Below are positions 10,138-33,925 of a DNA stretch of 64,000 bases, in pieces. Position 1 is the stretch's first letter. Every line of letters begins with the position of its first letter. The notes under the pieces were generated by a model. It did not search any database and had not been told where the DNA came from. It saw only the letters and a program-made list of their open reading frames with translations. The translations under genes were made by a program, and so were the position numbers. Origin of the DNA: Roseateles hydrophilus (GTDB taxonomy: Bacteria; Pseudomonadota; Gammaproteobacteria; Burkholderiales; Burkholderiaceae_C); the NCBI RefSeq assembly GCF_026712245.1, contig NZ_JAPPUY010000003.1, forward strand, positions 124,001 through 188,000. The letters run 5' to 3'.

Positions 10138-10294
10138 CCTCACCTCCCTGGCTGGCCCGGGCGGTGCCCAGGCGCCAGGCTGCCTCACTCTTTAAGAGGC
10201 CGCAGTATCTGGAATTCCGGCAGTTGCCGAGTCCCTCGTTCAGAGGGCGCGGCGGCGGCGGGCCTGGGCACCCACGGGTTGGCAGCGCACACCG
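10138..10294. promoter_or_regulatory. Divergent intergenic region, regulator / PEP-CTERM operon
   Basis: About 157 bases separate the start codons of the winged-helix/TPR regulator (minus) and the first PEP-CTERM gene (plus). It should hold both promoters. It includes an interrupted inverted repeat around GGAATTCC near 10211-10218 that could be a regulator site. I cannot assign -35/-10 boxes with confidence. Confidence 0.45.
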
Positions 10295-13200
10295 ATGGCC
10301 ATGCTTTGCCCACGTTTCGCCCTCTCCCGCCTCGCCCTGGCGCTGTTGGCGCTGAGCTCCACCTCGCTGGCACCCGCCGGCACTGTGACCTGGGTCGGCC
10401 CGCAGGGCGGCAGCTGGGCGGATGCCGCAAACTGGAGCGGTGGCGTGCTGCCGTCGGCACTGGACGACGTCCAGCTGGGCAGCTTCATCACGGCGGTAGA
10501 GGGTACCCACGTCATCGCCAGCCTGATGGGCACGAACTCGCTGCAGCTGTACAACACCGGCGGCCGGCTGACGGTCAACGGCGCCGCCGACCTGGGCGCG
10601 CTGGACCTCGTCGCGGGCACGCTGATTGGCAACGGCAACACACAGGTGGGCGGCTCGCTGCGATGGGACAACGGCAGCCTGGCCGGCGCCGGCAGCACGC
10701 GTGTGCTGGGCCTGACCACGCTGAGCGGCACGCTGTTCAACGTCCGCTCGCTGAGCGGCGGCCACACGCTGACACTGGCCGGCGGCGTGCAGCTGACCGA
10801 CAACTTCGGCCTGGACATCACCGGCGGCAGCACGCTGGTCAACACCGGCATCTGGCGCGACCAGGCCGCCGGCGACATCGGCCTTGGATCCATCGAATCC
10901 GCCACCGGCCCGGCCAACCGCTTCGACAACCGCGGCAACTACGTCAAGGCCGGCAACTTCACGACCAGCGTGGCGGCCGGCGTGGCCTTCGACAACAGCG
11001 GCAGCGTGGCCGTGAACGAGGGCACGCTGAGGCTGCAAGGCGGCGGCGATGGCCGCACCGGCAGCTTCAATGTGGCCCTTGGCGCGACTCTGGACTTCAA
11101 CCACGCCGGGCAGACTTATGCGCTGGGCCGCAACGTCGTCAACCGTGGCCGGCTGAAGATATCCGTCGGCACGGTCACTGCTGATTCGGGCCTGGAGGTC
11201 GATGGCAACGTCACGGTGGAGGCGGGAGAGCTGCAACTGGGCCTTGCCAGCACCTTCGAGAATTTGAGTCTGGTGTCGCCCTCCAGCCTTGTCAGTGTGA
11301 GCCGCAACAGCGGCATCATCACCGATGGACTTGATTGGGGAGGCGGAACACTCAGCGTCAGCGGCATGGCTGTCCAGCGCGCTATGTTGATCCATGGCGG
11401 TTCCCACCAGCTGGGGGGCTTCCTGTCGCTGGCGGCAGGAGCCAACAGCTCCGTCCAGGGCTCGCAGGTCAGCGTCAGAGGCGTCGGCGCCACGCTCTCG
11501 AACAGGGGCGTCTGGAACGACCTCACCTCCATCAGCCTGGATTTCGTCGACGCCGGCACGTTCTTCAACTTCGGAAGCTTCCTCAAGAGCGGAGCTGGCA
11601 CGACGACGTTGGACTGGGCCTTCGACAACAGCGGCGTCGTCAACCTGTTCTTCGGCACGCTGCGGCTGATGGGCGGCAGCGATGCGGCCAGCGGCTCCTT
11701 CGCGCTGTCCTCCGGCACCACGCTGGAGCTGGGCGGTGCCGCCAACCATGCGCTGAACCGCAATATCAGCAACGGCGGCACGCTGCTGATGCAGGGCACC
11801 ACCGTCGACGCCGCTGCGGGGCTGGCCCTCGGCGGCCAGACCCGCATCAACGGTGGCAGCCTCACGCTGGGTGCCGACAGCAGTATGAACGCGTTAACGC
11901 TGCAGGGCGGCGCGACGCTGAGCAGCGCTGGCAGGCTGGAGGTGAACGGGCCCATGGTGTGGGAAGACGGCCACCTGGCCGGTGCGGGCCGCACGCGCGT
12001 GCTGGGCCCGCTGACGCTGGACGGCAACACCGTGCGCACCGTGGCCGCCGGCCACACGCTGGAACTGCTTGGCAATACGGCCTTGAACGCCGGCACGCTG
12101 CAGCTGCAGTCCGCCTTCAACCAGGTCGGCAGCCTCAGCATCGCCAGCGGCGCCGTGCTGCAGGTCGACCACACCAGCTTCACCAACAGCGGCACGCTGG
12201 CCGGCTCGGGCACGGTGCGGGCGCTGGACGCACTCGGCAACACGGGCACCCTCGCCCCGGGCGGCATCGGGCAAGTGGGCCGGCTGGACGTGATCGGCAA
12301 CCTGGTCAACAGCGGCAGCCTGCTGGTGGACCTGGGCCGCAGCAGCGCCGACCAGCTGGCCGTCAGCGGCAGCGTCACGCTGGGCGGCACGGTCAACTTC
12401 GCCGTGGCCGGCGGCGAGCGCCTGGCGCGCGGCAGCCAGTTCACCGTGGTGAGCTGGGCCGAGCGGGCCAACAACAGCCAGTTCGACACGCTGGACTTCT
12501 CCCAGGCCTCGGGCTACCGCTTCGCCACTGCGTATGAGGCCAACGGCCTGAGCGTGACCGTGACCGGCGTGCCGTTCAACTGGACGGGCGCGGCAGCCGG
12601 CGGCTTCTGGGATGTGGCCAACAACTGGAACAGCGGCAACGACGGCCTGCCCCAGGCCGGCGACACCGTGCTGCTGGGCGGCGCCGACACCGTGATCCGC
12701 AGCACCCGATCGATGGCCGCCGCGACCGTCAACGGCACCGGCACCCTGGTCATCAACAGCGGCGCCACGCTCACGCTGAGCGACAGCGCCAGCCTGGGCG
12801 GCCTGCACCACAGCGGCACGCTGAACAACACCGGCCGCATGGTCGTGACGGCCGCCGGCATCCTCTCAGGCGCCACCCTCAGCGGCGCGGGCACCACGCG
12901 CTATGAAGGCGCGCTCGCCATCCAGGGCAATGCCAGCGCCCTGCAGAACGGGCAGACCCTCGAGGTGGCGGGCACGACCACGGTGCAGGGCAGCACCGCC
13001 ACCGGCCTGTCTGCCAGCAGCGGTGCGCGCATCGTCAACCAGGGCACATGGATCGATGTCGCCAGCGCCAACAGCCGCCTGAGCGGCAACAGCGGCAGCA
13101 GCGCTTTTGACAACCAGGGCAGCTTCACCAAGGCCAGCGCCACCACCACCACCATCGGCAGCTTTGGCCTGAGCTTCAACAACAGCGGCAGCGTCAACGT

Positions 13201-15091
13201 CGAGGCCGGCACGCTGAGCCTGGTCGGCAACGGCGCCAGCACCGGGCAGATCCGCATCGCCAGCGGCGCCACGCTGGATTTCGCCGGCAGCGGCGCCAGC
13301 TTTGACCTGAACCGCGACGTGAGCAACGCCGGCAGCTTCCAGGTCCGCGCCGGCGTTGTCAACGCGGCACAAGGCCTGACGCTGGGCGGCAGCACGGTCA
13401 TCAGCGCCGGCCGGCTCAACCTGGGCGGCAACAGTCAGTTCGACACCTTCAACTTCGTCGGCAGCGGCAGGCTCGACAGCAACGCCACCCTCATCGTCAC
13501 CGGGCCTACCACCTGGGCCGGCGGCACCTTCGCCGGCACGGGCACCACGCGGCTGGAAGGCGCGGTGAGCCTGGAGAGCGCCTCGTCCAGCGCCCTCAGC
13601 GGCGGCACGCTGGTGATGGCCGGCACCACCACGCAGACCAGCAGCGCCGGTATCAACATGAATGGCGGCGCCAGCGCCCGCCTCGTCAACGAAGGCACCT
13701 GGCTGGACCAAGCCGGCGGCAACATCAGCATCGGTGGCAGCGCGTCTCGCTTCGACAACACGGGCCGCTACATCAAGACCGGTGCCTTCACCACCAGCAT
13801 CGGCAGCTTCGGCACCGTCTTCAACAACACCGGCACCGTGGACGTGCAGGCCGGCACGCTGGACTTCTTTGGCGGCGGCAACAGCCCCGGCCAGTTCACG
13901 GTGGCCGCTGGCGCCACGCTGCAATTCAGCGCCGGCACCATGACCTTGAGGCGGTCGGTCAGCAACCTGGGCAGCTTCCGCGTGGGGGGCGCCGCCATCG
14001 TCAATGCCGCGCAAGGTCTTGAGCTCGGCGGCAGCACGGTCATCAGCGCCGGCCGGCTCAACCTGGGCGGCAACAGTCAGTTCGACACCTTCAACTTCGT
14101 CGGCAGCGGCAGGCTCGACAGCAACGCCACCCTCATCGTCACCGGGCCTACCACCTGGGCCGGCGGCACCTTCGCCGGCACGGGCACCACGCGGCTGGAA
14201 GGCGCGGTGAGCCTGGTGGGCGCCTCGTCCAGCGCCCTCAGCGGCGGCACGCTGGTGATGGCCGGCACCACCACGCAGACCAGCAGCGCCGGTATCAACA
14301 TGAATGGCGGCGCCAGCGCCCGCCTCGTCAACGAAGGCACCTGGCTGGACCAAGCTGGCGGCAACATTAGCATCGGTGGCAGCGCGTCTCGCTTCGACAA
14401 CACCGGCCGCTACATCAAGACCGGTGCCTTCACCACCAGCATCGGCAGCTTCGGCACCGTCTTCAACAACACCGGCACCGTGGACGTGCAGGCCGGCACG
14501 CTGCAGGTGTCCACGGGATTCAGCAACACCGGCCTGATCACCCTCGCCGCGGGTGCCGAGCTCCACGGTACGGTTGGCGCCTTCACCAACGCCGGCACGC
14601 TGGCCGGCGACGGCACGGTGCGCGCGGCCGACCGGCTCACCAACACCGGCACGCTGGCGGCCGGCGGCCTGAGCGACGCCGGCACGCTGAGCCTCATCGG
14701 TGGCCTGACGCAGCAGGCCGGTGGCACCTTCCTCGTCGACCTGGGTGGCACCACGGCCGGCAGCTTCGACCTGCTCACCATCAGCGGCGTCGCCACGCTG
14801 GGCGGCACGCTGGCCGTCAACCTGCTGGACGGCGCGCACTTCAACGTGGGCGACAGCTTCACCGTGATGACCTGGGGCCAGCGCCTGAACAACAGCCAGT
14901 TCGCCAACCTGGACCTCAGCCACGCCCAGGGCTACACGTTTGCCACCGAGTACGGCGCCAACAGCCTGACGCTGCGCGTGATGACCGCCGCGCCCGTGCC
15001 CGAGCCGGGCAGCTGGGCGCTGATGGCGGCGGGCCTCGTGGCCCTGGGCGCACTGCAGCGCCGCCGCCGCAAGGTCCAGCCCACCGCCTGA
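10295..15091 (+). CDS. Giant PEP-CTERM protein built of duplicated beta-strand repeat halves
   Basis: 1598 residues, Gly/Ala/Thr/Ser/Asn-rich and strikingly poor in Cys and Lys. A signal peptide lies at about 1-29 and a C-terminal PEP-CTERM signal (VPEPGSWALMAAGL, hydrophobic, then RRRRK) at the end. The chain has two similar halves. Each opens with a W-x(n)-W-x-x-A-x-NW block (near residues 33-47 and 768-785) and closes with a block ending in a short NNSQF motif (near 728 and 1535). In between are short beta-strand repeats of the kind seen in adhesins and passenger domains. A 159-codon segment is almost exactly duplicated (13385-13861 and 14027-14503). It is probably an extracellular matrix or surface protein processed by an exosortase. 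It is the first of seven co-directional genes. No strong ribosome site is seen. Confidence 0.85.
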   Translation: MAMLCPRFALSRLALALLALSSTSLAPAGTVTWVGPQGGSWADAANWSGGVLPSALDDVQLGSFITAVEGTHVIASLMGTNSLQLYNTGGRLTVNGAADLGALDLVAGTLIGNGNTQVGGSLRWDNGSLAGAGSTRVLGLTTLSGTLFNVRSLSGGHTLTLAGGVQLTDNFGLDITGGSTLVNTGIWRDQAAGDIGLGSIESATGPANRFDNRGNYVKAGNFTTSVAAGVAFDNSGSVAVNEGTLRLQGGGDGRTGSFNVALGATLDFNHAGQTYALGRNVVNRGRLKISVGTVTADSGLEVDGNVTVEAGELQLGLASTFENLSLVSPSSLVSVSRNSGIITDGLDWGGGTLSVSGMAVQRAMLIHGGSHQLGGFLSLAAGANSSVQGSQVSVRGVGATLSNRGVWNDLTSISLDFVDAGTFFNFGSFLKSGAGTTTLDWAFDNSGVVNLFFGTLRLMGGSDAASGSFALSSGTTLELGGAANHALNRNISNGGTLLMQGTTVDAAAGLALGGQTRINGGSLTLGADSSMNALTLQGGATLSSAGRLEVNGPMVWEDGHLAGAGRTRVLGPLTLDGNTVRTVAAGHTLELLGNTALNAGTLQLQSAFNQVGSLSIASGAVLQVDHTSFTNSGTLAGSGTVRALDALGNTGTLAPGGIGQVGRLDVIGNLVNSGSLLVDLGRSSADQLAVSGSVTLGGTVNFAVAGGERLARGSQFTVVSWAERANNSQFDTLDFSQASGYRFATAYEANGLSVTVTGVPFNWTGAAAGGFWDVANNWNSGNDGLPQAGDTVLLGGADTVIRSTRSMAAATVNGTGTLVINSGATLTLSDSASLGGLHHSGTLNNTGRMVVTAAGILSGATLSGAGTTRYEGALAIQGNASALQNGQTLEVAGTTTVQGSTATGLSASSGARIVNQGTWIDVASANSRLSGNSGSSAFDNQGSFTKASATTTTIGSFGLSFNNSGSVNVEAGTLSLVGNGASTGQIRIASGATLDFAGSGASFDLNRDVSNAGSFQVRAGVVNAAQGLTLGGSTVISAGRLNLGGNSQFDTFNFVGSGRLDSNATLIVTGPTTWAGGTFAGTGTTRLEGAVSLESASSSALSGGTLVMAGTTTQTSSAGINMNGGASARLVNEGTWLDQAGGNISIGGSASRFDNTGRYIKTGAFTTSIGSFGTVFNNTGTVDVQAGTLDFFGGGNSPGQFTVAAGATLQFSAGTMTLRRSVSNLGSFRVGGAAIVNAAQGLELGGSTVISAGRLNLGGNSQFDTFNFVGSGRLDSNATLIVTGPTTWAGGTFAGTGTTRLEGAVSLVGASSSALSGGTLVMAGTTTQTSSAGINMNGGASARLVNEGTWLDQAGGNISIGGSASRFDNTGRYIKTGAFTTSIGSFGTVFNNTGTVDVQAGTLQVSTGFSNTGLITLAAGAELHGTVGAFTNAGTLAGDGTVRAADRLTNTGTLAAGGLSDAGTLSLIGGLTQQAGGTFLVDLGGTTAGSFDLLTISGVATLGGTLAVNLLDGAHFNVGDSFTVMTWGQRLNNSQFANLDLSHAQGYTFATEYGANSLTLRVMTAAPVPEPGSWALMAAGLVALGALQRRRRKVQPTA
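13385..13861 (+). repeat. Intragenic near-identical repeat, copy 1
   Basis: A 477-base block of the 1598-residue PEP-CTERM gene that recurs 642 bases downstream, with about five differences seen by eye. The offset is a multiple of three, so the reading frame is kept. The encoded units begin GGSTVISAGRLNLGGN and end TVDVQAGTL. Confidence 0.92.
14027..14503 (+). repeat. Intragenic near-identical repeat, copy 2
   Basis: Second copy of the 477-base block at 13385-13861. The differences noticed include GAGAGC/GTGGGC after the SL codons and three single third-position changes. The near identity at nucleotide level, against much weaker similarity of the other units in the gene, points to a recent duplication or gene conversion. 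Confidence 0.92.
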
Positions 15092-15102
15092 ATGGAACTG
15101 CC

Positions 15103-16056
15103 ATGAACCACGCCCCGCGCCCCATCCCGTTCCCCGCGCAACCGCAACCCGCCACGGCCCGCCGCACGCTGGCGCTGCTGGCCACGCTGGGCGCCCGAGC
15201 CCGGGCCGAATCGCCGGGCCGTGACGCCGAGCAACAGCGCGCTGCCGGCCTGGCGCCGTCCACCGGCGGCAAACCGAGGCAGCGCCGCTGGCGGCGGCTG
15301 CGTGCCGGTCTGGCGGGCCTGGCCCTGGCCTGCGGCGCCCTCAACGCCGCCCAGGCCGGCCTCGTGAGCTATCGCTTCGACGGCCACTTCACCGCGGCCG
15401 GGCCGCATGACCCGGCACTGGTGGATGCCTTGTTGCCGCTGCTGAACACGGGTGCCGTGCGCATCGACATCACGTTCGACACGGCGGCGCCGGTCTCGCT
15501 GGAGGCAGAGGGCCAACTCGCCCGTGCGGCCGCCATCACCGGCGCCAGGTTCCAGTTCGCCGGCTTCTCGGGCGAGCTGACCGGCTGCGCCAGCCGGCCG
15601 GACAGCAGCTGTGCGGTCCGCGTGGGCAATGACATCTCGCCGTTCGACCCCGACGACCCGGGGGGCTACGACCTGTTCGGCCTCTCGCCCGGCCTGTTTC
15701 ATCTGCAGGCACTGGACGATGCCGCCGGCCTCGGCACGCGCATCGACTTGCGTTGGCACATCGGCTTCCTCGACGTCTTTGGCAATGCGCTGGACTCGTT
15801 GGCCTTCGACGCCGACCTGACGACGTTGCCGCTGAGGGACTGGTACCCATCGCTGTTCGCCGCGGCACCGGAACGCCCAAGCGCCTTTGGAACGGCCGAG
15901 TTCCACATCCGGATGGACGCGGTGACGCGGCTGGACGAGGCGGTGGTCGTCACCGTGCCCGTGCCCGAACCCGCTTCATGGGCACTGACCGTGCTCGCAC
16001 TTGGCGGTGCAGCACTGGGCGCACGCCGCCGCGCCGCCATCACACGCACAGCCTGA
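15103..16056 (+). CDS. PEP-CTERM sorting domain protein
   Basis: A 317-residue secreted protein. The hydrophobic export segment is preceded by an unusually long, Arg-rich N-terminal region of about 65 residues, with cleavage likely after LNAAQA. An internal start is possible but no clear one is seen. The mature part has beta-rich sequence (YRFDGHFTAAG, ITFDTAAPV) with one Cys pair, resembling other small PEP-CTERM proteins that carry a YRF/ITFDT block. The C-terminus is VPVPEPASWALTVLALGG followed by ARRRAA, a typical exosortase signal. It starts 11 bases after the giant gene, so it is the same transcript. Function is unknown; surface or matrix is inferred. Confidence 0.82.
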   Translation: MNHAPRPIPFPAQPQPATARRTLALLATLGARARAESPGRDAEQQRAAGLAPSTGGKPRQRRWRRLRAGLAGLALACGALNAAQAGLVSYRFDGHFTAAGPHDPALVDALLPLLNTGAVRIDITFDTAAPVSLEAEGQLARAAAITGARFQFAGFSGELTGCASRPDSSCAVRVGNDISPFDPDDPGGYDLFGLSPGLFHLQALDDAAGLGTRIDLRWHIGFLDVFGNALDSLAFDADLTTLPLRDWYPSLFAAAPERPSAFGTAEFHIRMDAVTRLDEAVVVTVPVPEPASWALTVLALGGAALGARRRAAITRTA

Positions 16057-16087
16057 CACCTCAACGCTGCGCCAAGGGGAGCCCGCC

Positions 16088-16951
16088 ATGTCCAAAGCCC
16101 TCGACGACCTGCTGACCAAGCTGCCGCTGTGGCTGGGCCAGTTCACACGCACGCTGACCCACCCCAGCCAGGTGCTGACCGAGCAGCTGAGCGCGGACGC
16201 CACCGCCAGCGCCCCGACGGACGCCAAGCCCGTGCAGGACGGCGTGGGCTTTCTGATCCTGTCCTTCGCCGTGGCGGCCGGCGTGGCCATCGCCTTCCCC
16301 GTGGCCAGCATGGCCCCGCTGGCGCCGGTGCCGGCCGACGGCGCGCTCGCGCAGAGTGCCTTGGTGCTGCGCCATCTGTTCGTGTTCCTGGGCGCCGCCG
16401 CGCTGGTGCACGGCGCCAGCAAGCTGCTGGGCAACCGGCAGGCCTTTGCCGGCTTCTTCGGCGCGGTGGCGCGCTTCGGCGGCGTGACGCTGGTGCTGCT
16501 GGCCCTGGCTGGCGCACTGACCAACGTGGGCATGGCCGACCCCATCGTGGCGCGCAACTGGCAGCAGTTGCGCCAGGTGGCCGTGCAGATGGGCGAGGGC
16601 GCCAAGACCGTGCTGTGCCAGGCCGACGCCAAGACCGGCCAGCTCTCGACCGGCACCGCCGTCGCTGGGCTGAACCCCGCCCAACTCGCCGACGCGCAGG
16701 CCCTGTACCTGGACACCGTGAGCCGCCCGCTGGTCCTCATCGCCAGCGCGCTGGAGTCGCTGTGCCTGCTGGCGCTGACCGTGTGGCTGGGCTGGGTGTG
16801 GTGGCGCTACTTGCGCACCAGCGGACTCACACCCGGCCGCGCCGTCGCGGCCAGCGCCGTGGGCGCCGTTGGCCTGGGCAGCGGCTACCTGCTGCTGGTG
16901 CTGATCGACGGCGGGCAGATGGCGTCGCAGCTGATGCGCACCTGCAGCTGA
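16088..16951 (+). CDS. Multi-pass inner membrane protein, unknown function
   Basis: 287 residues. A hydrophilic N-terminus (MSKALDDLLTKLPLWLG) is followed by about five hydrophobic helices (near 57-80, 97-117, 130-150, 215-240 and 255-275). It has no signal peptide and no catalytic motif that I recognise; the layout recalls Yip1/YIP-like membrane proteins, but that is not a firm match. The ATG at 16088 has AGGGGAG about 7 bases upstream; a longer open frame from 16001 overlaps the previous gene and is rejected. It sits between two exported PEP-CTERM genes in the operon, so a role in their export or assembly is possible (inference only). Confidence 0.7.
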   Translation: MSKALDDLLTKLPLWLGQFTRTLTHPSQVLTEQLSADATASAPTDAKPVQDGVGFLILSFAVAAGVAIAFPVASMAPLAPVPADGALAQSALVLRHLFVFLGAAALVHGASKLLGNRQAFAGFFGAVARFGGVTLVLLALAGALTNVGMADPIVARNWQQLRQVAVQMGEGAKTVLCQADAKTGQLSTGTAVAGLNPAQLADAQALYLDTVSRPLVLIASALESLCLLALTVWLGWVWWRYLRTSGLTPGRAVAASAVGAVGLGSGYLLLVLIDGGQMASQLMRTCS

Positions 16952-16962
16952 ACTCACCCCAC

Positions 16963-18051
16963 ATGCTGATACCCATGACCCATCTCCTCCCCGTCCGGCT
17001 GCTGCGCCACACCATCGCACTGCTGACTGCCAGCCTGCTCTGCGTGAGCGCTGGCGCCATGCCCCTGGTCAGCGCCGAGGCGGCCTTGCTGGCGCTCATC
17101 AACGATGCCCGCGGACAGCTGGGCGCCGCGGCACTGACGCTGAACGACCGCATGCGTGACGCGGCGCTCGCCGCCGCGCAAGACATGGCCGCCCACGCCA
17201 TCACCGGCCCGGTGGGCAGCAACGGCAGGACGGCGCTGGATCGCCTGGGGGACGCCGGCTACACCGCCGCCACCTTCCAGCCCGTGGGCCTGGTGGGCGT
17301 GGGCGGCGCGGACGGCAGCGCTCCGGTGCTGCTGGATCTCTGGCTGGCCGACACCACCAGCCGCGCCGCGTTGACCGCCACGTCGGCCACCGAGATCGGC
17401 GTGGGGCTGAGTTTTGACAGCGCCTCGCGGTCGTACTGGTCCCTGGTGATCAACCCGGTGGTGCCGGCCGACAACGGTGGCAATGACACCCCGCCCACCC
17501 CGCAGCCCCTCCCCGGGCTGGACCCGACCGCCTGCGCGGCCGGCCTGGCCACCCTGGACCGAGCCCAGTGCCTGCTGAACGACCTGCGGCTGCGCCAGGG
17601 CCTGCAGCGCCTGGCGCTGGACGGCGCCTTGACCGACGCCGGCCAGGCCCACAGCCTGGACATGCTGACCCACGACTTCCTGGGCTTCCTGGGCAGTGAT
17701 GGCAGTGACCTCATGCAACGCACGGCACAGGCCGGCTACGACGGCGCCGTGCTCGGCCAGCTGGTGGCGGACGGCTTCGCAGGTGTGGACGCCGTGCTGG
17801 GCGCCTGGCTGGACGGAGCAGCCAGCCGCGACGTGCTGCTCAACCCGCTGGCCAACGAGTTCGGCCTGGGCCTCCAAGGCAGCGGGCGCGACAGCCGCTG
17901 GACGCTATTCACCGGCCAGGCTCACGACACCGCGGCCGACCTTCCCGAGCCCGCGGCGCCGGGCCTGGCCTTGCTGGCCCTGGCAGCGCTGGGCGCAGTC
18001 CAGGCCCGCCGCCGCGCCACCACCATCTATCTCCCGACCCCGAGGACCTGA
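16963..18051 (+). CDS. Protein with two CAP/SCP-like domains and a PEP-CTERM-like tail
   Basis: 362 residues. A signal peptide ends near SAGA. It is followed by two tandem CAP-superfamily (SCP/PR1-like) units at about 38-165 and 190-325. Each starts with the helix typical of bacterial CAP domains (LLALINDARGQLG; AQCLLNDLRLRQGLQ) and has a DAGQAHS/ALAAAQD-type helix. The usual catalytic-site His residues appear only partly kept. The end (LPEPAAPGLALLALAALG, then ARRRA) matches a PEP-CTERM signal with a variant first residue. It starts at ATG 16963 (or 16975), 12 bases after the previous stop. It is probably exported to the surface with its neighbours; binding of lipid or polysaccharide is speculative. 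Confidence 0.78.
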   Translation: MLIPMTHLLPVRLLRHTIALLTASLLCVSAGAMPLVSAEAALLALINDARGQLGAAALTLNDRMRDAALAAAQDMAAHAITGPVGSNGRTALDRLGDAGYTAATFQPVGLVGVGGADGSAPVLLDLWLADTTSRAALTATSATEIGVGLSFDSASRSYWSLVINPVVPADNGGNDTPPTPQPLPGLDPTACAAGLATLDRAQCLLNDLRLRQGLQRLALDGALTDAGQAHSLDMLTHDFLGFLGSDGSDLMQRTAQAGYDGAVLGQLVADGFAGVDAVLGAWLDGAASRDVLLNPLANEFGLGLQGSGRDSRWTLFTGQAHDTAADLPEPAAPGLALLALAALGAVQARRRATTIYLPTPRT

Positions 18052-18054
18052 ACC

Positions 18055-21000
18055 ATGCGCCACCTCGCCCTGCGCACCCTCCCCGCCGCCCTCGTGCTCA
18101 TCGGCCTGCTACCCGCCCCGGGCGGCGCCGCCGTCCACCTGTGGACGGGTGCCACCGACGCCAACTGGAGCAACGCCGCCAACTGGGCCGGCGGACTGCC
18201 TGTGCCCGGGGGCGAGCTGCTGCTGGACAGCGCCACGCGCCCGGCCACGTTCAACGACATCGCCGGCGGCGTCACGCTGCTGGGCCTGACGCTGGGCGCC
18301 AACGCGCCCGCACCCATGCTGAGCGGCAACGCGCTGCGCTTCCAGGGCGACGGCGCCTACCTGCGCATGCTGTCCAACAGCGGCCACGGCCTGGTGGACA
18401 ACGACCTGCAGCTGGACAACATGCTGCAGATCAGCGGCGGCCCCAGCGTCACCAGCCAGCTGTTCCTGCGCGGCGACATCAGTGGCAGTGGCGGGCTGGC
18501 CGCGCTGTCCGGCCGCACGGTGCTGAGTGGCAACAACAGCTTCAGCGGCGCCACCACCATCGCGGCCGGTGCCGCGCTGGGCATCGCAGGCGGCGCGCTG
18601 GCCGGCAGCAGCGGCGTGCAGGTGGCGAACGGCGGCGAGCTGCAGTTCGTCAGCGCCAACGTCGCGACCACGCTGAACAAGCCCGTCGCGCTGGGCGGGC
18701 GGCTCAGCAGCAGCGCTGTCGACGTGCAAACCCCCTTCGGCAAGGTCGCAGGCAGCGCCGTGCAGGGCGCGGTGACGCTGACCGACAGCGCCGAGATCCT
18801 GGCGCTGAACGGCACCACCGCACAGCCGGTGCGCTTCTTCGTGACCGGCAGCGTCGACCGCGCCGGCCAGGCGCTGACGCTCGCCACGTCGGGCGTGGGC
18901 AGCACGCTCAACGTCGGCGCCATCGTCGGCAACGGCGCGCTGACGCTGCGGCCGGCCGGCGGCGCGATCACCGTCGGCGCCGTGAGCGGCGCGGGCGAAC
19001 TGCGCGCCACCGGCGCCAGCGGCTCGGCCACCGTGGCCAGCCTGGCCGGCGACGGCCGCGTGCTGGTGGACTTCGACGACAGCTTCGGCAAGCTCACCCT
19101 CACTGGCGCCCTGGGCGGCCAGCGCGACCTGGACGTGCGCCGCGGCACGCTGAACCTCGGCACCACGGCACCGCTGAGCTTCACCGGCCAGATCACGCTG
19201 CGCGGCGAGGGCACGCTGAGCCTGGGCCGCGAGAGCTATCTCGGCAACGCCAGCCCGGTGCTGCAGTTCGACGGCGGCGGCCGGCTGGTGCTGCGCGACG
19301 GCTTCGGCCTGGCGCGCAACATCGTCACCCAGGGCGGCACGGGCAGCGTGACCTTCGGCGCCAGCACCACCAACACCGTCAGCGGCACCATCAGCGGCGA
19401 CGGCGGCATCAGCTTCGTCGGTGGCGTCATCACGGTCACCGGCAACAACACGTTCGCAGGCGGACTGGGCGTGTTCAACGACGGCACGATCAATGCCGCC
19501 GGCCAGCCCAACACCACCACGCTGCGCTTCAACCATGACGGCAACCTGGGCGCCGCGGGCCAGGGCATCACGCTCAGCGGCGGCCTGGCGCTGCCCGACG
19601 GCTACGACCTGAGCCGCCCGCTGACGCTGGTGGGCACGGCCGCCAACCTCAGCGCCAGCGGCACGCACACGATCGCCAGCAGCATCAGCGGCGACGGCCG
19701 CCTCAACCTCGGCGGCGCCGCCCGCTACGTGCTGACCGGCACCAACACGCACACCGGCGGCGTGGCGCTGGCCGGGCAGGCGAGCGGCCAGGCCGCCGTG
19801 CTGGTGATCGACAGCGACGCCCAACTCGGCATGCCCGGCGGCGTGCTGAACATCGGCCGCGCCAGCGGCTTCTTCACGCTGCCCGGCACGCTGGTGGCAG
19901 CCGGCAACCTGGACATCGCCGCCACGCGCAGCACGAGCTTTCGCGCGATGACGGTGGACACCAACGGCTTCGATGTGGTGTTCAACCAGCCCATCGCCGG
20001 GCTGGGCATCACCAAGGCCGGCACCGGCACCTGGACGCTGAACACCGCCAACACCGGCACCGGCGCCGACAACGTCGTGCGGGTGCAGCAGGGCACGCTG
20101 GCGCTGGGCGCCGACGAAGCGCTCGGCACGCGCAACCTCGTGACCGTGGCCGATGGCGCCCAGCTGGCACTGAGCGGCCACGTGCTGACCATGACCTCGC
20201 TGGATGCCGCCGCCGGCAGCACGGTGGACCTCGGCGCCGGCGGCACGCTGCGGCCGCTGTTCGGCACGCTGGACGGCGCGCTCACCGGCCAGGGCAGCCT
20301 CGTCGTCGGCCGCGCGGGCTTCTCGCCGGCCGGCGTGACGCTCAACGGCGCCAACAGCTTCAGCGGCAGCATCGACGTCATGAACGGCAGCCGGCTCACC
20401 GTCGGCCATGTCGACGCGCTGGGCGCAGCCGCCAACCTCATCCGCCTGGACAACGGCTCGCTGGAGGCCACCAGCCGCCTCGCCGCACCGCTGGTCATCA
20501 GCAATGCCACCAACCTGCAGATCGGCACGGGCGGCGCCGGCTTCGTGGCGGGCGGCCAGTCCGTCGTCATCGAGCGCACGCTGACGGGGCCGCTGGCGCT
20601 GCGCATCCAGGGCGGCAGCCTGCCCGGCAACGGCGGCGACAAGTTCGACGTGCGCCTGGCGGCCCGCGACAACAGCTTCACCGGCGACCTCGTGCTGGGC
20701 GACCCGCAGAGCTTCGGCAGCGCGGTGCTCGGCATTACCGCCGACGGCTCGCTGGGCGCGGCCGGCAACCGGCTCGTCCTCGGCAAGAGCTTCTTCGACG
20801 GCGAGAGCACCCGCAGCGCCCAGGGCGGCCTGCGCGCCTGGGACTCGCTGACGCTGGCGGCCACGCGCACCCTGCTGCTGGACGGCAGCGCAGGCGACAC
20901 CGCCGGTTTCATCGACACCAACGGCCACACGCTGGTGGTGGCCGGTCGCATCGGCGAGTTGCAGTCCGAGCTGGGCCTGCTCAAGACGGGCGAAGGCACG

Positions 21001-21549
21001 CTGGTGCTCAACGGCGTTCAGGCCTACACCGGCCGCACGACGGTGGACGCCGGCACGCTCGGCGGCCACGGCGAGGTGGAACGGCTGGCCGTGCAGGCCG
21101 CCACGCTGGCGCCGGGCGAGAGCGCGGGGCTGTTCAGCGTGCGGCAGGACTTGAGCTTCAGCAGCGCCGCCCAGCTCAGCATCGAGCTGGGCGGCCTGCT
21201 GCGCGGCACGGGCTACGACGCGCTCAACGTCGGCGGCAGCGTGGACCTGGGCGGCGACACGCTGCTGAGCCTGAACTTCATCAACGGCTTTGTCGCCACG
21301 GCGGGCCAGCAGTTCCAGCTCATCCAGGCCGACGGCGGCCTGTTCGGCAGTTTCGCCAACGTGGCCGACGGCGCGCGGCTGCTGACCACCGATGGCAGCG
21401 GCAGCTTCCTCGTGCAGTACGGCAACGGCCAGGGCCTGGTGATCAGCGACTTCCAGGCCGCCGCCGTACCGGAGCCGTCCACCTGGGTGCTGATGGCCCT
21501 GGGCCTGGCCGGCCTGGGCCTGCGGGCCCGCCGCCGCGCAAGCGTCTGA
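18055..21549 (+). CDS. Large PEP-CTERM protein with autotransporter-type beta-strand repeats
   Basis: 1164 residues. A signal peptide ends at about 25 (GGAA) and is followed by the same W...W-x-x-AANWAGG opening block as the giant gene. The body is made of passenger-associated (PATR-like) repeats of the form G-x-G-L-x-x-x-G-x-x-x-L-x-G-NNSFSG-x-T-x-I. The C-terminus is VPEPSTWVLMALGLAGLG then RARRRA, an exosortase signal, so despite the autotransporter-like passenger there is no outer-membrane barrel. It starts 3 bases after the CAP gene stop, with GAGGA inside the end of that gene as a likely ribosome site. It is probably a fibrous surface or matrix protein in the same operon. Confidence 0.86.
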   Translation: MRHLALRTLPAALVLIGLLPAPGGAAVHLWTGATDANWSNAANWAGGLPVPGGELLLDSATRPATFNDIAGGVTLLGLTLGANAPAPMLSGNALRFQGDGAYLRMLSNSGHGLVDNDLQLDNMLQISGGPSVTSQLFLRGDISGSGGLAALSGRTVLSGNNSFSGATTIAAGAALGIAGGALAGSSGVQVANGGELQFVSANVATTLNKPVALGGRLSSSAVDVQTPFGKVAGSAVQGAVTLTDSAEILALNGTTAQPVRFFVTGSVDRAGQALTLATSGVGSTLNVGAIVGNGALTLRPAGGAITVGAVSGAGELRATGASGSATVASLAGDGRVLVDFDDSFGKLTLTGALGGQRDLDVRRGTLNLGTTAPLSFTGQITLRGEGTLSLGRESYLGNASPVLQFDGGGRLVLRDGFGLARNIVTQGGTGSVTFGASTTNTVSGTISGDGGISFVGGVITVTGNNTFAGGLGVFNDGTINAAGQPNTTTLRFNHDGNLGAAGQGITLSGGLALPDGYDLSRPLTLVGTAANLSASGTHTIASSISGDGRLNLGGAARYVLTGTNTHTGGVALAGQASGQAAVLVIDSDAQLGMPGGVLNIGRASGFFTLPGTLVAAGNLDIAATRSTSFRAMTVDTNGFDVVFNQPIAGLGITKAGTGTWTLNTANTGTGADNVVRVQQGTLALGADEALGTRNLVTVADGAQLALSGHVLTMTSLDAAAGSTVDLGAGGTLRPLFGTLDGALTGQGSLVVGRAGFSPAGVTLNGANSFSGSIDVMNGSRLTVGHVDALGAAANLIRLDNGSLEATSRLAAPLVISNATNLQIGTGGAGFVAGGQSVVIERTLTGPLALRIQGGSLPGNGGDKFDVRLAARDNSFTGDLVLGDPQSFGSAVLGITADGSLGAAGNRLVLGKSFFDGESTRSAQGGLRAWDSLTLAATRTLLLDGSAGDTAGFIDTNGHTLVVAGRIGELQSELGLLKTGEGTLVLNGVQAYTGRTTVDAGTLGGHGEVERLAVQAATLAPGESAGLFSVRQDLSFSSAAQLSIELGGLLRGTGYDALNVGGSVDLGGDTLLSLNFINGFVATAGQQFQLIQADGGLFGSFANVADGARLLTTDGSGSFLVQYGNGQGLVISDFQAAAVPEPSTWVLMALGLAGLGLRARRRASV

Positions 21550-21590
21550 CCACGCTGCGCACCGCCTGACACACCGACACGGACGGAACC

Positions 21591-24500
21591 ATGCCCAATC
21601 TCGTACTCGCAGGTGAAGTCTTCTCGCTGGACGCTTCGGCTGGCTTCGACGAGGGCCTCATCCGCGGCAAGGTTGGCGCCGGCGCGCGGCTCAACTTCAC
21701 CACGCGCTTCACGGCCTGCCACGGCCTCGCCGCGCAAGCCGCTGCGCAAGCGCGGGCCGACGCCTCGGCGCAGCTCGGGCTGCTCGGCCTGCTGTCCGGC
21801 GATGCCCAAGGCGCCGCGCTGGCCACGGCGGGGGCCACGCTGGTCGCGACGGCCACCATCGACCCCTTCGACCGCGCTGGCCTGGACGTTGGCGTGGCGG
21901 CCTACGCCGAGGCCTCCGTGGCGGGGCGGCTGAGCTTGTCGCTGGACTTGCAGGACGTCGCCCGGCTGGCCGCCGAGCGGCTGGACGGCCCCGCGCTGGA
22001 GGTCTTCCTCGCCTTGCTGCGCGAGATCAAGCTGGGTGCCGGGGTGTGGGCACGCATCGGCGTGGCCGCGATGGCGCGGGGGCAGCTGTCGGTGCTGCTG
22101 AGCCTGGCGGACGACGACAAGGCGGGCTTCGTGATCGAGGGCAGCCTGGCGGTCGGTGCCGCTGTCGGCGGCGGGGTGGATGTGTACGCGGGCGCGCTGT
22201 TCGAGAGCCCGAAGCGCTTCTTCCTGACGGCGGTGGACATCGCGACCGGAGCCTTGGTGACCGAGGCCCACAAGCACCTGCCGCCCAGCCTGCGCGTGCA
22301 TCTGGCGGCCCTGGAGTTCGCGCTGCCGGCGTTGCTCAACGCCGCGTACGAGATCGCCCAGATCGACACCGCCGCGCTGGCCGCCCGGCCGGCGCTGGCC
22401 GGCGAGGTCTTCGCGGCCTGCATCGGGGCTGAGTTGCAGCGCTTCCTGCTCGACAAGCTCGCGCTGGGTGCGGCCACCCTGGTTGCTGCGCAGCTGGATG
22501 TCCTCTCGGAGCGCCTCGCCGCCGCGCCCTTGCCTGACGCGGCCGCGCGCACGGCGGCCGCGGCGGTGCGGTCTGCCTTGGACCTGCTGGAAGGCCGGAC
22601 GTTGACCCTGACCAGCGCCACCGAAGCGCTGCCTGCGCTGGCCGCCGTGCTCGACGCGGTGGATGCGGCGGGGCGCAGCACCTGGCGGCCGGCGCTGGCG
22701 GCGCTGTGGCTCAGCCTGGCCGCCGCCGATGCGCTGCGCCAGGGCATCGTCGCCCGGCACGCAGGCGCCAGCGCGGGCGTGATGGGGCTGGCGGCGCAGG
22801 TGACGGGCGCGCTCACGATCGAGATCCGCGATGTGCCGGCCTTCATTCAGGACGAGCTGCAGGCGCGGCTGGGCATCCCGCGCGCCAGCAAGCTCGGTTT
22901 CACGCAGGTGGTGGCCTGGCTGATCGACAGCCAGCTGCTGCCACGGCTGCGCCTCGCGGTGCCCGAGGTCGTGCCCTTGCTGGACATGATCGAACGGGAG
23001 CTGGACCTCTCGGATGTGATCACCGCCGCGCTGCGGGGCGACCTGAAGCTCAGCTACGCGCCCTGCCGTGCGCTGGCGTCGCGCCTGCTGGATGAGTTGC
23101 TGCTGCAGCGCTTGCTGCCTCAGCTGGCCCTGCTGCTGCGGGACAACGACGCCAGCCGCTTGTGGACCGAGGAGGTGGCCCGCCCCAGCCTGGTGATGCT
23201 GCGCGACTTTGTACTGGCCCGGCTGGACGACGCCGTGGCAGGCCGCGCGCTGCAGCAGGAACCCTTGCGCGCGGCCTTGGGGCTGCTGGTGGGCAAGATC
23301 GTCACCAGCCACGTCATCGTGCTGCGCGACATCCTCGTGGACCACATCCGCGACAACGTGGCCCAGGCGGCACGCCAGCTGTCCGATGAACTGAGGGACG
23401 GGCGGCGCACGCCGCTGGTCAACGCCTTCAACACCCTGGCGCAACCGCTGGTGTCGGTGGCCGGCCATGTCATCCCACGCCCGCTGATGCTCGATGCCTG
23501 CCAGGAGCTGGCGGCCGACCTGCTGCTGGCGCTGGCCAGCGCCACCGGTGAGCAGGTGTGGACCGACGCGCGGCGCGCCAAGGAGCGCGAGCTGCTGCGC
23601 CGCATCGTGTTCAGCATCTACAGCGAAGCCGACCGGGCAGACCCGAATCGCTTCATGGCCGAGGTCGCCGCCTGCGCCTACCTGCCGGCACCGCAAGCCG
23701 TGAAGGACATGCTGCTGCTGCAGGCCGAGATGATGGCCGCGACGCTGGGCCAAACCCTGTCCGCCACGTTGGCGGCGCTGGAACGCTTCTTCGCCCGGCT
23801 GGCTGAAGGCTTGATCAAGCAGATCGAGACCGGGCTGGCCGACGGGCTGGCCGACCTGCGTGACGACCTGGTGGCCATCGGCAAGGAGCTGGTGGTGCTG
23901 GGCCGGCAAGCCGAAGCGCGGTTGGCCGAGGCCGAGCGCTTTGCACGCGAGATCTCCCGCCAGCTTGGCAACGCGGCGGCGGCCTGCCGGTCTGCCACCC
24001 GACGCCAGCAAATCCTCGACCGGCTGCAACGGGACGGCGCCGCCAACGCGCGCGCGTTCGCCCGGCAGGCGCCCGGCTTCAGCCTGTGGCCGAGAGAGGC
24101 CCGGGCACTGGCCCTGACCGCCGCAGGCAACGCATTCGGCACGGCCTTTGGCGCCGTGCGGCCGCTGCTGGACGGCGCGCTCCGGGTGCTGGGCGCGGTG
24201 GGCGACGACATCGCCCGGCTGTTCGCGGCTGTGGCCGACATGGCGGCCCTGATGCGGGCGCTGACCCAGGCCATCACGAACCGCCTGAATGCCGCCGTGC
24301 AAGCCTTGGCGAACCTGCAACTGCCACGCGAGATCTCCCTCCAAGCCATCGTGGACGCGGCGGTGGACATCGTGACCAACCTCCCGCCGATCCGCGAGGC
24401 GCTGCGCCTGGCCTTCGCCGCGCGCCAGAACGAGCAGGCAGCCCGAGCCGGCGAGCGCAGGCTGCGCGCCAGCATCGCCACCAAGGCCCAGGCCCAGGAG

Positions 24501-25229
24501 GCCAAGCAGGACGCGCTGGACGCGGCCCTGGTGGGCGGCGCGCTGGGGGTGAACATCTGCAGCCCGCTGGGCGTCACCAACGATCCGGATGCTGCTTGCG
24601 TCTACCACACGAGCATCCCGGTCCGCATCGTCGTCGCGGGCCTGCCCGCGACGCCCGGCAACGCCATGGACGGCCAAGCGCTGCTGCTGCTCAATGGCCA
24701 GCAGGTCAGCGTGCCGGATGCAGCGTGGCAACGCACCGGCAAGCTCTTGCGGCTGTCACTGCCACTGGCGGCGTCTCACCCGGCGATGCGGCCGGGCCTC
24801 AACGTGCTGGAGTTCGCCTGCGCCGGTGGCGGACGGCCTGCCCAGCGCAGCCGCAAGACCTTCCTGGTGAACAAAGCCGCGACGCCGACCGACGGTGTGC
24901 GGGTACGCGTGACGAACGGGGCCCTCGACATCAGCGGCGCGGTGAGCACGGCCGCGCTGCAGGGCTGGCGCGTGGTGGTGCCCGGCGGGCAGGTGCGCCG
25001 GGGCGTCTTGACCGCCGGCACGCCCATGCCGCTGAACAAGCTGGCGGGCCCACCAGCCGCACCACCCAGCCCGCGACCCGGGCCGCCCCGCATCCATCCC
25101 GCCCCGGTGACGCCGGGACGAATCCCCCATCTGCGGCCCGTCAACCTGGCGCCATGCCTGCGGGCCATCACCGTGATCGACGCCGCCGGGCGTCACCGCC
25201 TGGACCACCTGCTGGGAGACGACCAATGA
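21591..25229 (+). CDS. 1212-residue protein of unknown function, no signal peptide
   Basis: Not recognised. The N-terminal ~230 residues are Gly/Ala-rich with beta-like runs (IRGKVGAGARLNF, VGAAVGGGVDVYAGALF). From about 240 to 1000 it is almost wholly predicted amphipathic helix, Ala/Leu/Arg/Asp-rich, including apolipoprotein-like segments (ARLAEAERFAREISRQLG). The last ~200 residues contain a beta-like domain (IPVRIVVAGLPATPGN, ALLLLNGQQV, a few Cys) and a Pro-rich linker. There is no N-terminal signal, PEP-CTERM tail or clear transmembrane helix. GGACGGAA precedes the ATG. It follows the PATR-like gene by 41 bases and overlaps the next gene by 4 bases (ATGA). A scaffold, lipid-binding or tape-measure-like role is possible but unproven. 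Confidence 0.7.
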   Translation: MPNLVLAGEVFSLDASAGFDEGLIRGKVGAGARLNFTTRFTACHGLAAQAAAQARADASAQLGLLGLLSGDAQGAALATAGATLVATATIDPFDRAGLDVGVAAYAEASVAGRLSLSLDLQDVARLAAERLDGPALEVFLALLREIKLGAGVWARIGVAAMARGQLSVLLSLADDDKAGFVIEGSLAVGAAVGGGVDVYAGALFESPKRFFLTAVDIATGALVTEAHKHLPPSLRVHLAALEFALPALLNAAYEIAQIDTAALAARPALAGEVFAACIGAELQRFLLDKLALGAATLVAAQLDVLSERLAAAPLPDAAARTAAAAVRSALDLLEGRTLTLTSATEALPALAAVLDAVDAAGRSTWRPALAALWLSLAAADALRQGIVARHAGASAGVMGLAAQVTGALTIEIRDVPAFIQDELQARLGIPRASKLGFTQVVAWLIDSQLLPRLRLAVPEVVPLLDMIERELDLSDVITAALRGDLKLSYAPCRALASRLLDELLLQRLLPQLALLLRDNDASRLWTEEVARPSLVMLRDFVLARLDDAVAGRALQQEPLRAALGLLVGKIVTSHVIVLRDILVDHIRDNVAQAARQLSDELRDGRRTPLVNAFNTLAQPLVSVAGHVIPRPLMLDACQELAADLLLALASATGEQVWTDARRAKERELLRRIVFSIYSEADRADPNRFMAEVAACAYLPAPQAVKDMLLLQAEMMAATLGQTLSATLAALERFFARLAEGLIKQIETGLADGLADLRDDLVAIGKELVVLGRQAEARLAEAERFAREISRQLGNAAAACRSATRRQQILDRLQRDGAANARAFARQAPGFSLWPREARALALTAAGNAFGTAFGAVRPLLDGALRVLGAVGDDIARLFAAVADMAALMRALTQAITNRLNAAVQALANLQLPREISLQAIVDAAVDIVTNLPPIREALRLAFAARQNEQAARAGERRLRASIATKAQAQEAKQDALDAALVGGALGVNICSPLGVTNDPDAACVYHTSIPVRIVVAGLPATPGNAMDGQALLLLNGQQVSVPDAAWQRTGKLLRLSLPLAASHPAMRPGLNVLEFACAGGGRPAQRSRKTFLVNKAATPTDGVRVRVTNGALDISGAVSTAALQGWRVVVPGGQVRRGVLTAGTPMPLNKLAGPPAAPPSPRPGPPRIHPAPVTPGRIPHLRPVNLAPCLRAITVIDAAGRHRLDHLLGDDQ

Positions 25230-26173
25230 GCAGCCGCCAACCGCTGGCCCCGCTGAGGCCGGCCTTGAACCGCCTGCTGGGCACGCTGGAGGCGCGCCCG
25301 CTGGACGGGCGCCTGATGAGCACGCTGTCCATGCTGACCGACTTCGACATCAACAGCGCGGCGTTGACGGCCGAACACGAGCAGCAGATTGCCGACATCG
25401 CGCAGTTCATGCTGGAGCGGCCCGAGGCCGGCATCGTCAGCATCGTGGGCCGCGCCAGCCAGACCGGCCCCGAGGCCACCAACCGCGCGCTGGCCCAGGC
25501 CCGCGCCGAGCAGGTGGCCACCGCGCTGGCGGCCCACGGCCTGCCGCCGTCGCGCATCGGCGCCACGCTGTCCAACGGCTCACGCCTGCCCCTGATCCAC
25601 ATCCCGGGGCGCGAGGCCGGCCTGAACCGCAGCGTGGAGCTGACGCTGGAGTGGCGCGCCCGGATGGCGAGCCCGGCGCCGGCCGCCAACGCGGCAACGT
25701 CGACCGACTGGGTGCTGGACCTGAGCCTGAGCATGACGCTCACGTCCGGCCTCATCAAGCTGCCACTGGCGGGGCAGGTGCAGCTCGGCGAGCTGCAGCG
25801 CCTGGACGCCTCGGGGCGGGTGCTGGAAACCCGCAGCGCCCATCTGTTCATGGGCGGCCTGGACTGGGGCATGTCGTTCAAGAAGATCGAAGCGCTGCCG
25901 ATCTTTGCCTCGTTCTCGACAGGCGCCGGCCTGGGCGGCGAGATCTACATGCCCGACCCGCCCGGCGCCGTCGACGCCGAGTGGTTCGACGGCCGCTGCG
26001 TCATGCTCATCGGCGTCTCGGCCGGCGTCGGCGTGGGTGTCGAGGGCACGGTGCTGCTGTTCCCCAGCGTCGGGGAGTGGCCGGGCACGTTCTACGCACA
26101 GGTCACGACGGGCTTCCAGGCCGGGGCGAGCCTGCTGACCGGCCTGGTCGGTGTGCTGACCCTCGCGGACTGA
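25226..26173 (+). CDS. OmpA-like domain protein with Gly-rich C-terminal domain
   Basis: 315 residues, no signal peptide. Residues about 30-145 look like an OmpA/MotB peptidoglycan-binding fold: LTDFDINSAALTAEHEQQIADIA, then IVGRASQTGPEATNRALAQARAEQV, then NRSVELTLEW. The usual Asp/Arg contacts appear shifted. The C-terminal ~165 residues form a separate beta-like domain with Gly-rich runs (FSTGAGLGGEIY, LIGVSAGVGVGVEG) resembling the Gly-rich part of the preceding protein. Start and upstream stop overlap as ATGA, so the two are translationally coupled and may interact. Lack of a signal peptide is odd for OmpA-type domains and suggests a cytoplasmic or non-classical location. Confidence 0.75.
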   Translation: MSSRQPLAPLRPALNRLLGTLEARPLDGRLMSTLSMLTDFDINSAALTAEHEQQIADIAQFMLERPEAGIVSIVGRASQTGPEATNRALAQARAEQVATALAAHGLPPSRIGATLSNGSRLPLIHIPGREAGLNRSVELTLEWRARMASPAPAANAATSTDWVLDLSLSMTLTSGLIKLPLAGQVQLGELQRLDASGRVLETRSAHLFMGGLDWGMSFKKIEALPIFASFSTGAGLGGEIYMPDPPGAVDAEWFDGRCVMLIGVSAGVGVGVEGTVLLFPSVGEWPGTFYAQVTTGFQAGASLLTGLVGVLTLAD

Positions 26174-26174
26174 T

Positions 26175-26202
26175 CCGGCACGCGCAGCGGCGCTAGTGCC
26201 GG
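26175..26202. terminator. Hairpin between convergent operons
   Basis: CCGGCAC (26175-26181) pairs with GTGCCGG (26196-26202), extended inward by GCGC/GCGC with a small bulge. It lies at the meeting point of the plus-strand PEP-CTERM operon and the minus-strand metal operon, overlapping the stop of the EamA gene. No U-tract is present. Confidence 0.5.
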
Positions 26203-27260
26203 TGCGTGTGGTGCGCGTCCGGCACGTGCGGGTGGGCGTGGCGCTTGGGCTCGTGGCGGTGCGGGTGGCTGTGCGCACCGACGGGCATGGGGTCGTGCCA
26301 GTGGTCGTGGTGGTCGTCGCCGTGCGTATGCGTATGCGCATGCTCGTGCTCCAACGCCTCGTGCTCATGCTCGTGCGCGTGCGATTCCATCAGGTGCAGG
26401 GCCACGCCCGCCAGCATCAGCGCACCGCCCGCGGCCATGCCCCAGCTGGCCAGCCGGTCGCCCATCAGCAGCGCAATGCCCGCGCCCACAAAGGGCGCGA
26501 AGGCAAACACCGAGCCGGTGCGTGCGGCGCCGAAGGTCCGCTGGGCCAGCAGGTAGAAGCGCAGGCTCAGGCCATAGCCGCTGGCACCGATGACCAACAG
26601 GGCGCTCGCGGCCGCCGCACCGGGCAGCGGTTCTCCGGCAAGCACGGCCAGCACCAGCGCCGCACCGGCGCCCAGCGCCGCCTTGGCCATCACCACCTGC
26701 CCCGGATCGCGCTCGGCCAAGGCGCGTGACAGGCAGTTGTCCACGCCCCAGGCCACCGTCGCCAGTCCGATGGCCAACAGGCCCAGCAGCTGCGAGTTCC
26801 CGCCTCGGCCCTGGTCCAGCACCAGCACGACGCCCCCGGCAAACAGCATCAGCAACGCCGCCCAGACGCGCCGGTCCATCACCTCGCCATAGAGCCTCCA
26901 GGCCAGCAGCGCGGTGAACAAGGCCTCCAGCGTCAGCATCAGCGACGCGCCCGTGCCGCTGGTGCGCTGCAGCCCCCAGGCCAGCGCCACCGGGCCGATG
27001 ACGGCACCGCACGCCGCGAGCAGCAACAGCCGCGGCAGGTCGGCACGCCGCAACGCCGCCTCGCGCTCGGGCCGCTGCCGCAGCAGCGCACCGATGCAGG
27101 CCGCCCCCGCGTACAGCAGGGCGGCCGTGGTGAACGGGCCCAGCCCGCGCCCGACCTGCTGCACCAGCGGCATGCTGGCGCCAAACAGCAGCGCAGCCAG
27201 CAGCGCCAACGCACCGCCGCGCAGGGCCGGGCCGGTGAGCACGAGGCGGTGCATGCTCAC
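26193..27260 (-). CDS. EamA/DMT family transporter with a His-rich cytosolic or periplasmic tail
   Basis: 355 residues. About ten hydrophobic helices in two EamA halves cover residues 10-290. A hydrophilic tail of about 63 residues then carries roughly two dozen His, mixed with Asp/Glu. His-rich tails usually bind Zn, Ni, Co or Cu; here it sits on a drug/metabolite-type permease, the last gene of a heavy-metal efflux operon. This suggests metal or metallo-metabolite export (inference). The GTG at 27260 overlaps the stop of the preceding gene by 4 bases; an ATG two codons in (27254) is an alternative start. Confidence 0.87.
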   Translation of the reverse strand: MSMHRLVLTGPALRGGALALLAALLFGASMPLVQQVGRGLGPFTTAALLYAGAACIGALLRQRPEREAALRRADLPRLLLLAACGAVIGPVALAWGLQRTSGTGASLMLTLEALFTALLAWRLYGEVMDRRVWAALLMLFAGGVVLVLDQGRGGNSQLLGLLAIGLATVAWGVDNCLSRALAERDPGQVVMAKAALGAGAALVLAVLAGEPLPGAAAASALLVIGASGYGLSLRFYLLAQRTFGAARTGSVFAFAPFVGAGIALLMGDRLASWGMAAGGALMLAGVALHLMESHAHEHEHEALEHEHAHTHTHGDDHHDHWHDPMPVGAHSHPHRHEPKRHAHPHVPDAHHTHRH

Positions 27261-27637: not shown

Positions 27638-27707
27638 CTTCAAAACTCCTTGGTGTCGGTGCGGCGCGCTTGATGCAGGCGCGCGCCGCGAGGCCTGATT
27701 CAAACGC

Positions 27708-30839
<3,132 letters not shown>

Positions 30840-30854
30840 GATCGGCGGCTCCGT

Positions 30855-33819: not shown

Positions 33820-33893
33820 GATGATCGTGGCAGAGATGCGCCCCGGTCGCCCGCCGCATGGGCACAGGCGGGGTGGGGCAGCGGTCAGCAGAG

Positions 33894-33914: not shown

Positions 33915-33925
33915 GCGACAGCGGA

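Follow-up and report, generated by a model that had tools for sequence, protein, structure and literature searches.

Does a run of seven closely spaced genes on one strand make one system, or do separate units lie end to end? The question is raised by genes P1-P7 in a stretch of 64,000 nucleotides of Roseateles hydrophilus DNA, called here the window. The initial annotation had taken them for a single system in which PEP-CTERM proteins, a membrane protein and a possible internal scaffold stand opposite a ToxR-like regulator. A literature search found no paper on a gene set of this make-up, a statement limited to that search, and a defence-protein scan of four proteins returned nothing (best E 0.28). 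The seven genes span 10295-26173 and are faced by a divergent regulator.

Regulator, 7654-10188, minus strand: Trans_reg_C winged helix, one membrane segment (by eye) and TPR repeats; CadC/ToxR/HilA-like
P1, 10295-15091, plus strand: 1598 aa, giant repeat PEP-CTERM protein (PEP-CTERM 28.9 bits; repeats at about 642 nt)
P2, 15103-16056, plus strand: 317 aa, PEP-CTERM protein (25.1 bits) with two signal-like N-terminal stretches
P3, 16088-16951, plus strand: 287 aa, multi-pass membrane protein with five hydrophobic segments; no family
P4, 16963-18051, plus strand: 362 aa, two CAP stretches (75.4 bits) and a PEP-CTERM-like tail (14.9 bits, below cut-off)
P5, 18055-21549, plus strand: 1164 aa, PATR repeat PEP-CTERM protein (PATR 40.3 bits, PEP-CTERM 28.7 bits)
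P6, 21591-25229, plus strand: 1212 aa, Ala/Leu-rich, without signal peptide; no relative found, frame backed by codon score
P7, 25226-26173, plus strand: 315 aa, without signal peptide; OmpA-like domain at about 30-140 (51.1 bits) and an orphan C-terminal half

Gene calls and the facing regulator

The intergenic gaps are 11, 31, 11, 3, 41 and -4 bases. Seven other window genes served to train a codon-usage score, which preferred the listed frame for each of P1-P7; for P6 it gave +0.392 bits per codon, against -0.157 or lower in the five other frames. Since the score prefers these frames, the long antisense frames opposite the array (for example 21213-24731) were ruled out as real genes. Coordinates, gaps and codon score thus confirm the original count of seven plus-strand genes spaced by -4 to 41 bases.

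The regulator matched Trans_reg_C (64.1 bits) and TPR repeats in Pfam, and its layout, an N-terminal Trans_reg_C domain, a membrane segment seen by eye and a C-terminal sensor part, is that of CadC/ToxR-like proteins, as the initial annotation had recognized. The top NCBIfam model was CadC, at 91.4 bits against a cut-off of 400. Because this score is under the model cut-off, we class the protein by sequence as CadC/ToxR-like and not as CadC itself. It is 77-78% identical in three of the 19 other genus genomes (E<=1e-60), and proC adjoins it in all three.

PEP-CTERM proteins and the changing neighbours of P5

PEP-CTERM proteins are exported, their tails are processed by exosortase, and they end at the surface or in a matrix. 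A Pro-Glu-Pro motif, a hydrophobic stretch and a basic end were found at the C-terminus of P1, P2, P4 and P5. P1, P2 and P5 have tails scoring over the Pfam threshold; that of P4, at 14.9 against 20.7 bits, is sub-threshold and has the expected form and place, so the four PEP-CTERM-type tails of the earlier reading stand, as does its multi-pass membrane protein, P3. Across the genome, PEP-CTERM gave 45 matches and exosortase (PF09721) two over the cut-off, and such substrates are therefore routine for it. Signal peptides in the array were judged by eye and hydropathy only; P4 and P5 passed the hydropathy cut for an N-terminal export signal, and P1 and P2 failed it. A further PEP-CTERM gene lies outside the array, at 821-1573 on the minus strand.

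Within P1, a 300-nt unit is present in two copies (13347-13646 and 13989-14288) with a 642-nt spacing and 96% identity; older copies are similarly spaced, which suggests that this repeat surface protein has recently grown longer. Over 45 bases, the stretch of P1 that encodes the PEP-CTERM tail (14994-15038) has 93% identity to the corresponding tail of a different gene in a genus relative, G162. Such tails could be recombination sites at which array members are swapped, or could merely reflect a shared motif and codon bias. P2 has its two signal-like stretches in tandem (15103-15360); roughly its first 30 residues align with the N-termini of small PEP-CTERM proteins in G153 and G491, the remainder differs, and the DNA of this head is 91% identical to G153 over 44 bases. 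Judged by these matches, P2 is probably a hybrid gene produced by recombination. Apart from tails, repeats and the P2 head, neither P1 nor P2 recurred in the fetched loci.

Neither Pfam nor NCBIfam gave a match to P3. A relative with 74% identity was reached by synteny in G153, two places before P5. The draw of 150 family genomes searched with P3 left out G153 and gave a sole other match, in G105, which was rejected; it lies opposite a PpiD-like gene. P4 has a relative in G167 (54%) that adjoins P5.

P5 itself has relatives in six genomes, with about 64-77% protein identity. Three of them (G492, G491 and G011) came from a search of 199 other family genomes, and the genus relatives G153, G162 and G167 were reached by synteny, through regulator and P4 matches. 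For long queries in large draws (P6 in 150 and P5 in 199 family genomes), 3-4 candidates were scored per genome. The gene order around P5 differs from genome to genome. In G153 the order is regulator, AAA/TPR protein, PEP-CTERM gene, P3, PEP-CTERM gene, P5; in G162 the regulator is followed by three PEP-CTERM genes (one of them DUF7453) and then P5; G167 ends its contig with P4-P5; and G491 has AAA/TPR, PEP-CTERM, P5 and PEP-CTERM. No other PEP-CTERM gene was present around P5 within the fetched flanks of G492 and G011. The array parts that recur in relatives are the regulator, P3, P4 and P5. By these comparisons P5 is the recurrent core of the array, and its array neighbours vary between genomes. 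Whether the seven genes keep the same order elsewhere was a check named by the initial annotation, and they do not in the genomes compared: P5 has different neighbours in different genomes, and in none of the six with a P5 relative do the fetched flanks contain P6 or P7.

Other genes were seen at these loci. The AAA/TPR protein heads the array in G153 and G491 (L050:743-3751 and L058:10918-14022; Pfam). In G165 (L052:1-1500) an AAA/TPR-like sequence, identified by eye, faces the regulator at the position which P1 occupies in the window. An EarP-like gene lies 3' of P5 in G153 (L050:9849-11216), scoring 46.2 against 25 bits with Pfam EarP and 49.6 against 347 with NCBIfam.

According to passages of a published report, pepA of Aquincola tertiaricarbonis encodes a PEP-CTERM protein tied to floc formation (PMC9850573). 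The array resembles such PEP-CTERM/exosortase systems in its PEP-CTERM tails, its repeat-rich proteins and the exosortases of the genome. It differs from pepA in that P2 scores 17.4 of 80 bits on NCBIfam floc_PepA, the neighbouring regulator is CadC-like, and sigma-54-type sites are at chance level in the window (38 matches, 44.9 expected), with none in the gap before P1. As the site count is not above chance, a sigma-54 promoter for the array was rejected.

P6, P7 and the segment 3' of P5

The last two genes had been described as lacking signal peptides, and this holds. The P6 frame is open for only 7 codons upstream of the start (1219 codons in all), so as the frame reads it cannot conceal an upstream signal peptide. 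For P7, nothing signal-like was seen by eye at the start or in frame upstream.

P6 gave a single Pfam/NCBIfam match, DUF7217, far under its cut-off (18.2 against 29 bits). At E<=0.001 it matched its own genome only, both among 20 genus genomes and among 150 family genomes; two further short genus matches (E 0.076 and 0.32) were attributed to chance. Pattern scans seeded on six exact 8-residue peptides, which detect close relatives only, gave 64 stretches in genome contigs and 8 in viral contigs, none confirmed, and no relative in plasmids or phages. When residues 1-300 were compared with 299 phylum genomes, 28 genomes including its own matched at E<=0.1 (best other 4.6e-4); 14 loci (L030-L043) were re-aligned, and the 9 that aligned look by eye like unrelated proteins. 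The genomes with P5 relatives were covered as whole genomes for G153, G162, G167 and G011 and as fetched flanks for G491 and G492. In every search made, P6 is an orphan. Its residues 721-880 have high helical moments (predicted amphipathic helices), its C-terminal part has low helix propensity and is Pro-rich near the end, and its ten Cys residues are scattered along its length. Internal repeats are weak at best, as 5 and 8 of 200 shuffles scored at least as high as the top two of ten segment pairs. A relation between the P6 N-terminus and the P7 C-terminus was rejected, its score being reached in 147 of 300 shuffles.

P7 contains an OmpA domain (PF00691, 51.1 against a cut-off of 27.2 bits) that aligns with the YiaD, Pal and OmpA structures. 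In peptidoglycan-binding domains of this kind an Asp and an Arg bind diaminopimelate, at the positions of the Acinetobacter structure. P7 retains the Arg and has Ser at the Asp position in all five alignments shown. Matches at E<=0.001 were present in 125 of 150 family genomes, and among the matches listed only the own genome extended beyond residue 217. Fourteen family loci besides its own were fetched, and the 8 that aligned at E<=0.01 resemble, by eye, exported or lipoprotein OmpA proteins; plasmids (9 records) and phages (5 records) matched the OmpA part only. The C-terminal residues gave 68 stretches in genome contigs, none confirmed, and residues 156-315 matched 11 of 369 class genomes at E<=0.05, its own included. 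Nine of these candidate loci were re-read and 6 aligned; two were IspH-like by eye and the others were short or unrelated frames. The second half of P7 is, on these searches, an orphan. The structure model of P7 was poor (mean pLDDT 37.8), with a C-terminal half that is beta-rich at low confidence. Profile searches, among the methods that the initial annotation had recommended for both proteins, placed the OmpA domain and left P6 and the rest of P7 without a family.

The YiaD-type OmpA lipoproteins are the best match of the P7 OmpA domain (47.3 bits, under the cut-off of 175; structure 2k1s). P7 differs from them by the absence of a lipoprotein signal, the Ser in place of Asp and the additional C-terminal half. 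A likeness can also be drawn to TraAB of myxobacteria, an outer membrane exchange pair (PMC3325183). Both loci combine, within a single gene run, a surface protein that ends in a sorting tag and a protein that bears an OmpA domain. P7 departs from TraAB in lacking a signal peptide and in having its OmpA domain at the N-terminus and without the Asp, and at this locus P6 intervenes; P7 scored 14.1 bits on NCBIfam exchanger_TraB, far from the cut-off of 700.

P6 and P7 overlap by four bases (ATGA), and overlaps of this type are a usual sign of translational coupling. Their sequences suggest a cytosolic pair with coupled translation. In 13 fetched loci (157,600 bases, including P5 itself and one genome without P5) only short, weak matches were found, with best E values of 0.63 for P6 and 0.036 for P7.

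DNA similarity between the window and five relatives stops at 21519-21535, in the P5 tail. Similarity to G491 stops at 21315, and a match at 21539 pairs the P5 tail with another PEP-CTERM gene. For G162 it ends at 21522 and restarts at 34379; for G153 it restarts at 34449, in both at a hydrolase-like lipoprotein gene, and G162, G153 and G167 are also similar at about 37600, at an ABC transporter. In G162 the first of the downstream-similar genes follows P5 after 84 bases; in G167 P5 is directly adjoined by the ABC transporter gene; and in G153 the distance from P5 to the downstream-similar region is about 3.7 kb, filled by other genes. P6 and P7 lie in a segment that also contains four genes identified by Pfam:

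Segment without counterpart in G162, 21523-34378, no strand: 12.9 kb; its limits are ends of DNA similarity, not mapped breakpoints, and the first lies in the last P5 codons
EamA transporter, 26193-27260, minus strand
RND pump, 27708-30839, minus strand
HlyD protein, 30855-32015, minus strand
Outer membrane efflux protein, 32566-33819, minus strand

None of the three genus relatives with a comparable downstream side has the segment in this form: it is either absent there or differs. Because similarity stops and restarts, and because relatives have other junctions next to P5, the segment appears either specific to the host lineage or lost in others. P6 was not found in any of the 19 other genomes of the genus, which makes insertion the simpler reading; the absence in relatives could instead reflect deletion there. 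P6 and P7 have codon usage and G+C normal for the genome and therefore do not look freshly foreign. No mobility gene was found in the Pfam-scanned frames, no tRNA in the window, and no flanking repeat above 11 exact bases; flanking direct repeats were rejected. A scan that is low-powered here found no terminator-like site in the 41-base P5-P6 gap, so a single transcript over all seven genes is possible.

Weighing the readings

We regard it as probable that two unrelated units lie end to end, a variable array of exosortase substrates (P1-P5) and a separate, appended pair (P6-P7). P1-P5 would form a variable substrate set behind the CadC-like regulator. P1, P2, P4 and P5, each with a putative N-terminal signal, would be exported through Sec and have their tails processed by one of the two exosortases; P1 and P5 as repeat adhesins and P4 as a CAP protein would then reach the surface or matrix, and P3 may be an accessory inner-membrane protein. 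P5 would be the lasting member, with neighbours gained, lost and swapped around it. P6-P7 would have arrived with the efflux pump and transporter in the 12.9-kb lineage-specific segment just 3' of P5, and through this position may be read off the P5 transcript. The OmpA domain of P7 probably binds a protein partner and not peptidoglycan, and P6, with its predicted amphipathic helices, would be the likeliest such partner.

The strand, the short gaps, the one divergent regulator and the lack of a terminator-like site between P5 and P6 speak for one system of seven genes, in which a PEP-CTERM surface matrix would be built with P6 as internal scaffold and P7 as anchor. We nevertheless hold this unlikely, since P6 and P7 are not found in the fetched surroundings of P5 in six relatives, P5 stands without a PEP-CTERM neighbour in the fetched flanks of two of them, P1 and P2 are not seen again at these loci save for tails, repeats and the P2 head, and P6-P7 share their segment with pump genes. 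What survives of the original proposal is the PEP-CTERM set facing a CadC/ToxR-type regulator; the unit of all seven genes with an internal scaffold finds no support. P6 and P7 were not seen widely apart from PEP-CTERM genes, a pattern that the initial annotation had named as fatal to its idea, because no P6 relative was found at all.

The common segment could also be taken to mean that P6-P7, the pump and the EamA gene were acquired as one module. P6-P7 lie on the strand opposite to the pump genes and RND pumps function without such partners, which makes this reading very improbable. It is also quite improbable that P6-P7 act outside the cell after leaving it by a non-Sec route, such as lysis or an injection apparatus, with the C-terminal 200 residues of P6 resembling a beta-domain. 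The low helix propensity and Pro-rich end of P6 and the beta-rich, low-confidence second half of P7 would fit such export, but there is no signal, the ten Cys residues are spread along P6, and the scans made found no phage, plasmid or viral-contig relative of P6. A more speculative proposal, to which we give little credence, is that P6-P7 are the first members of a cytosolic pair of a new kind, a long helical protein with an OmpA-like protein that no longer binds peptidoglycan; this lineage would have recruited the pair into the PEP-CTERM array's expression unit, to act on array products before export.

We thus favor the reading of an appended pair, with P1-P5 as an ordinary, variable PEP-CTERM array and a seven-gene system as unlikely. 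The locus illustrates how a PEP-CTERM array may change, with a lasting P5, swapped neighbours and new cargo at the 3' end, and it marks P6-P7 as an orphan pair with a defined site. We know of no cytosolic helper of exosortase substrates; if P6-P7 serve the surface array, they would be a new helper of that kind.
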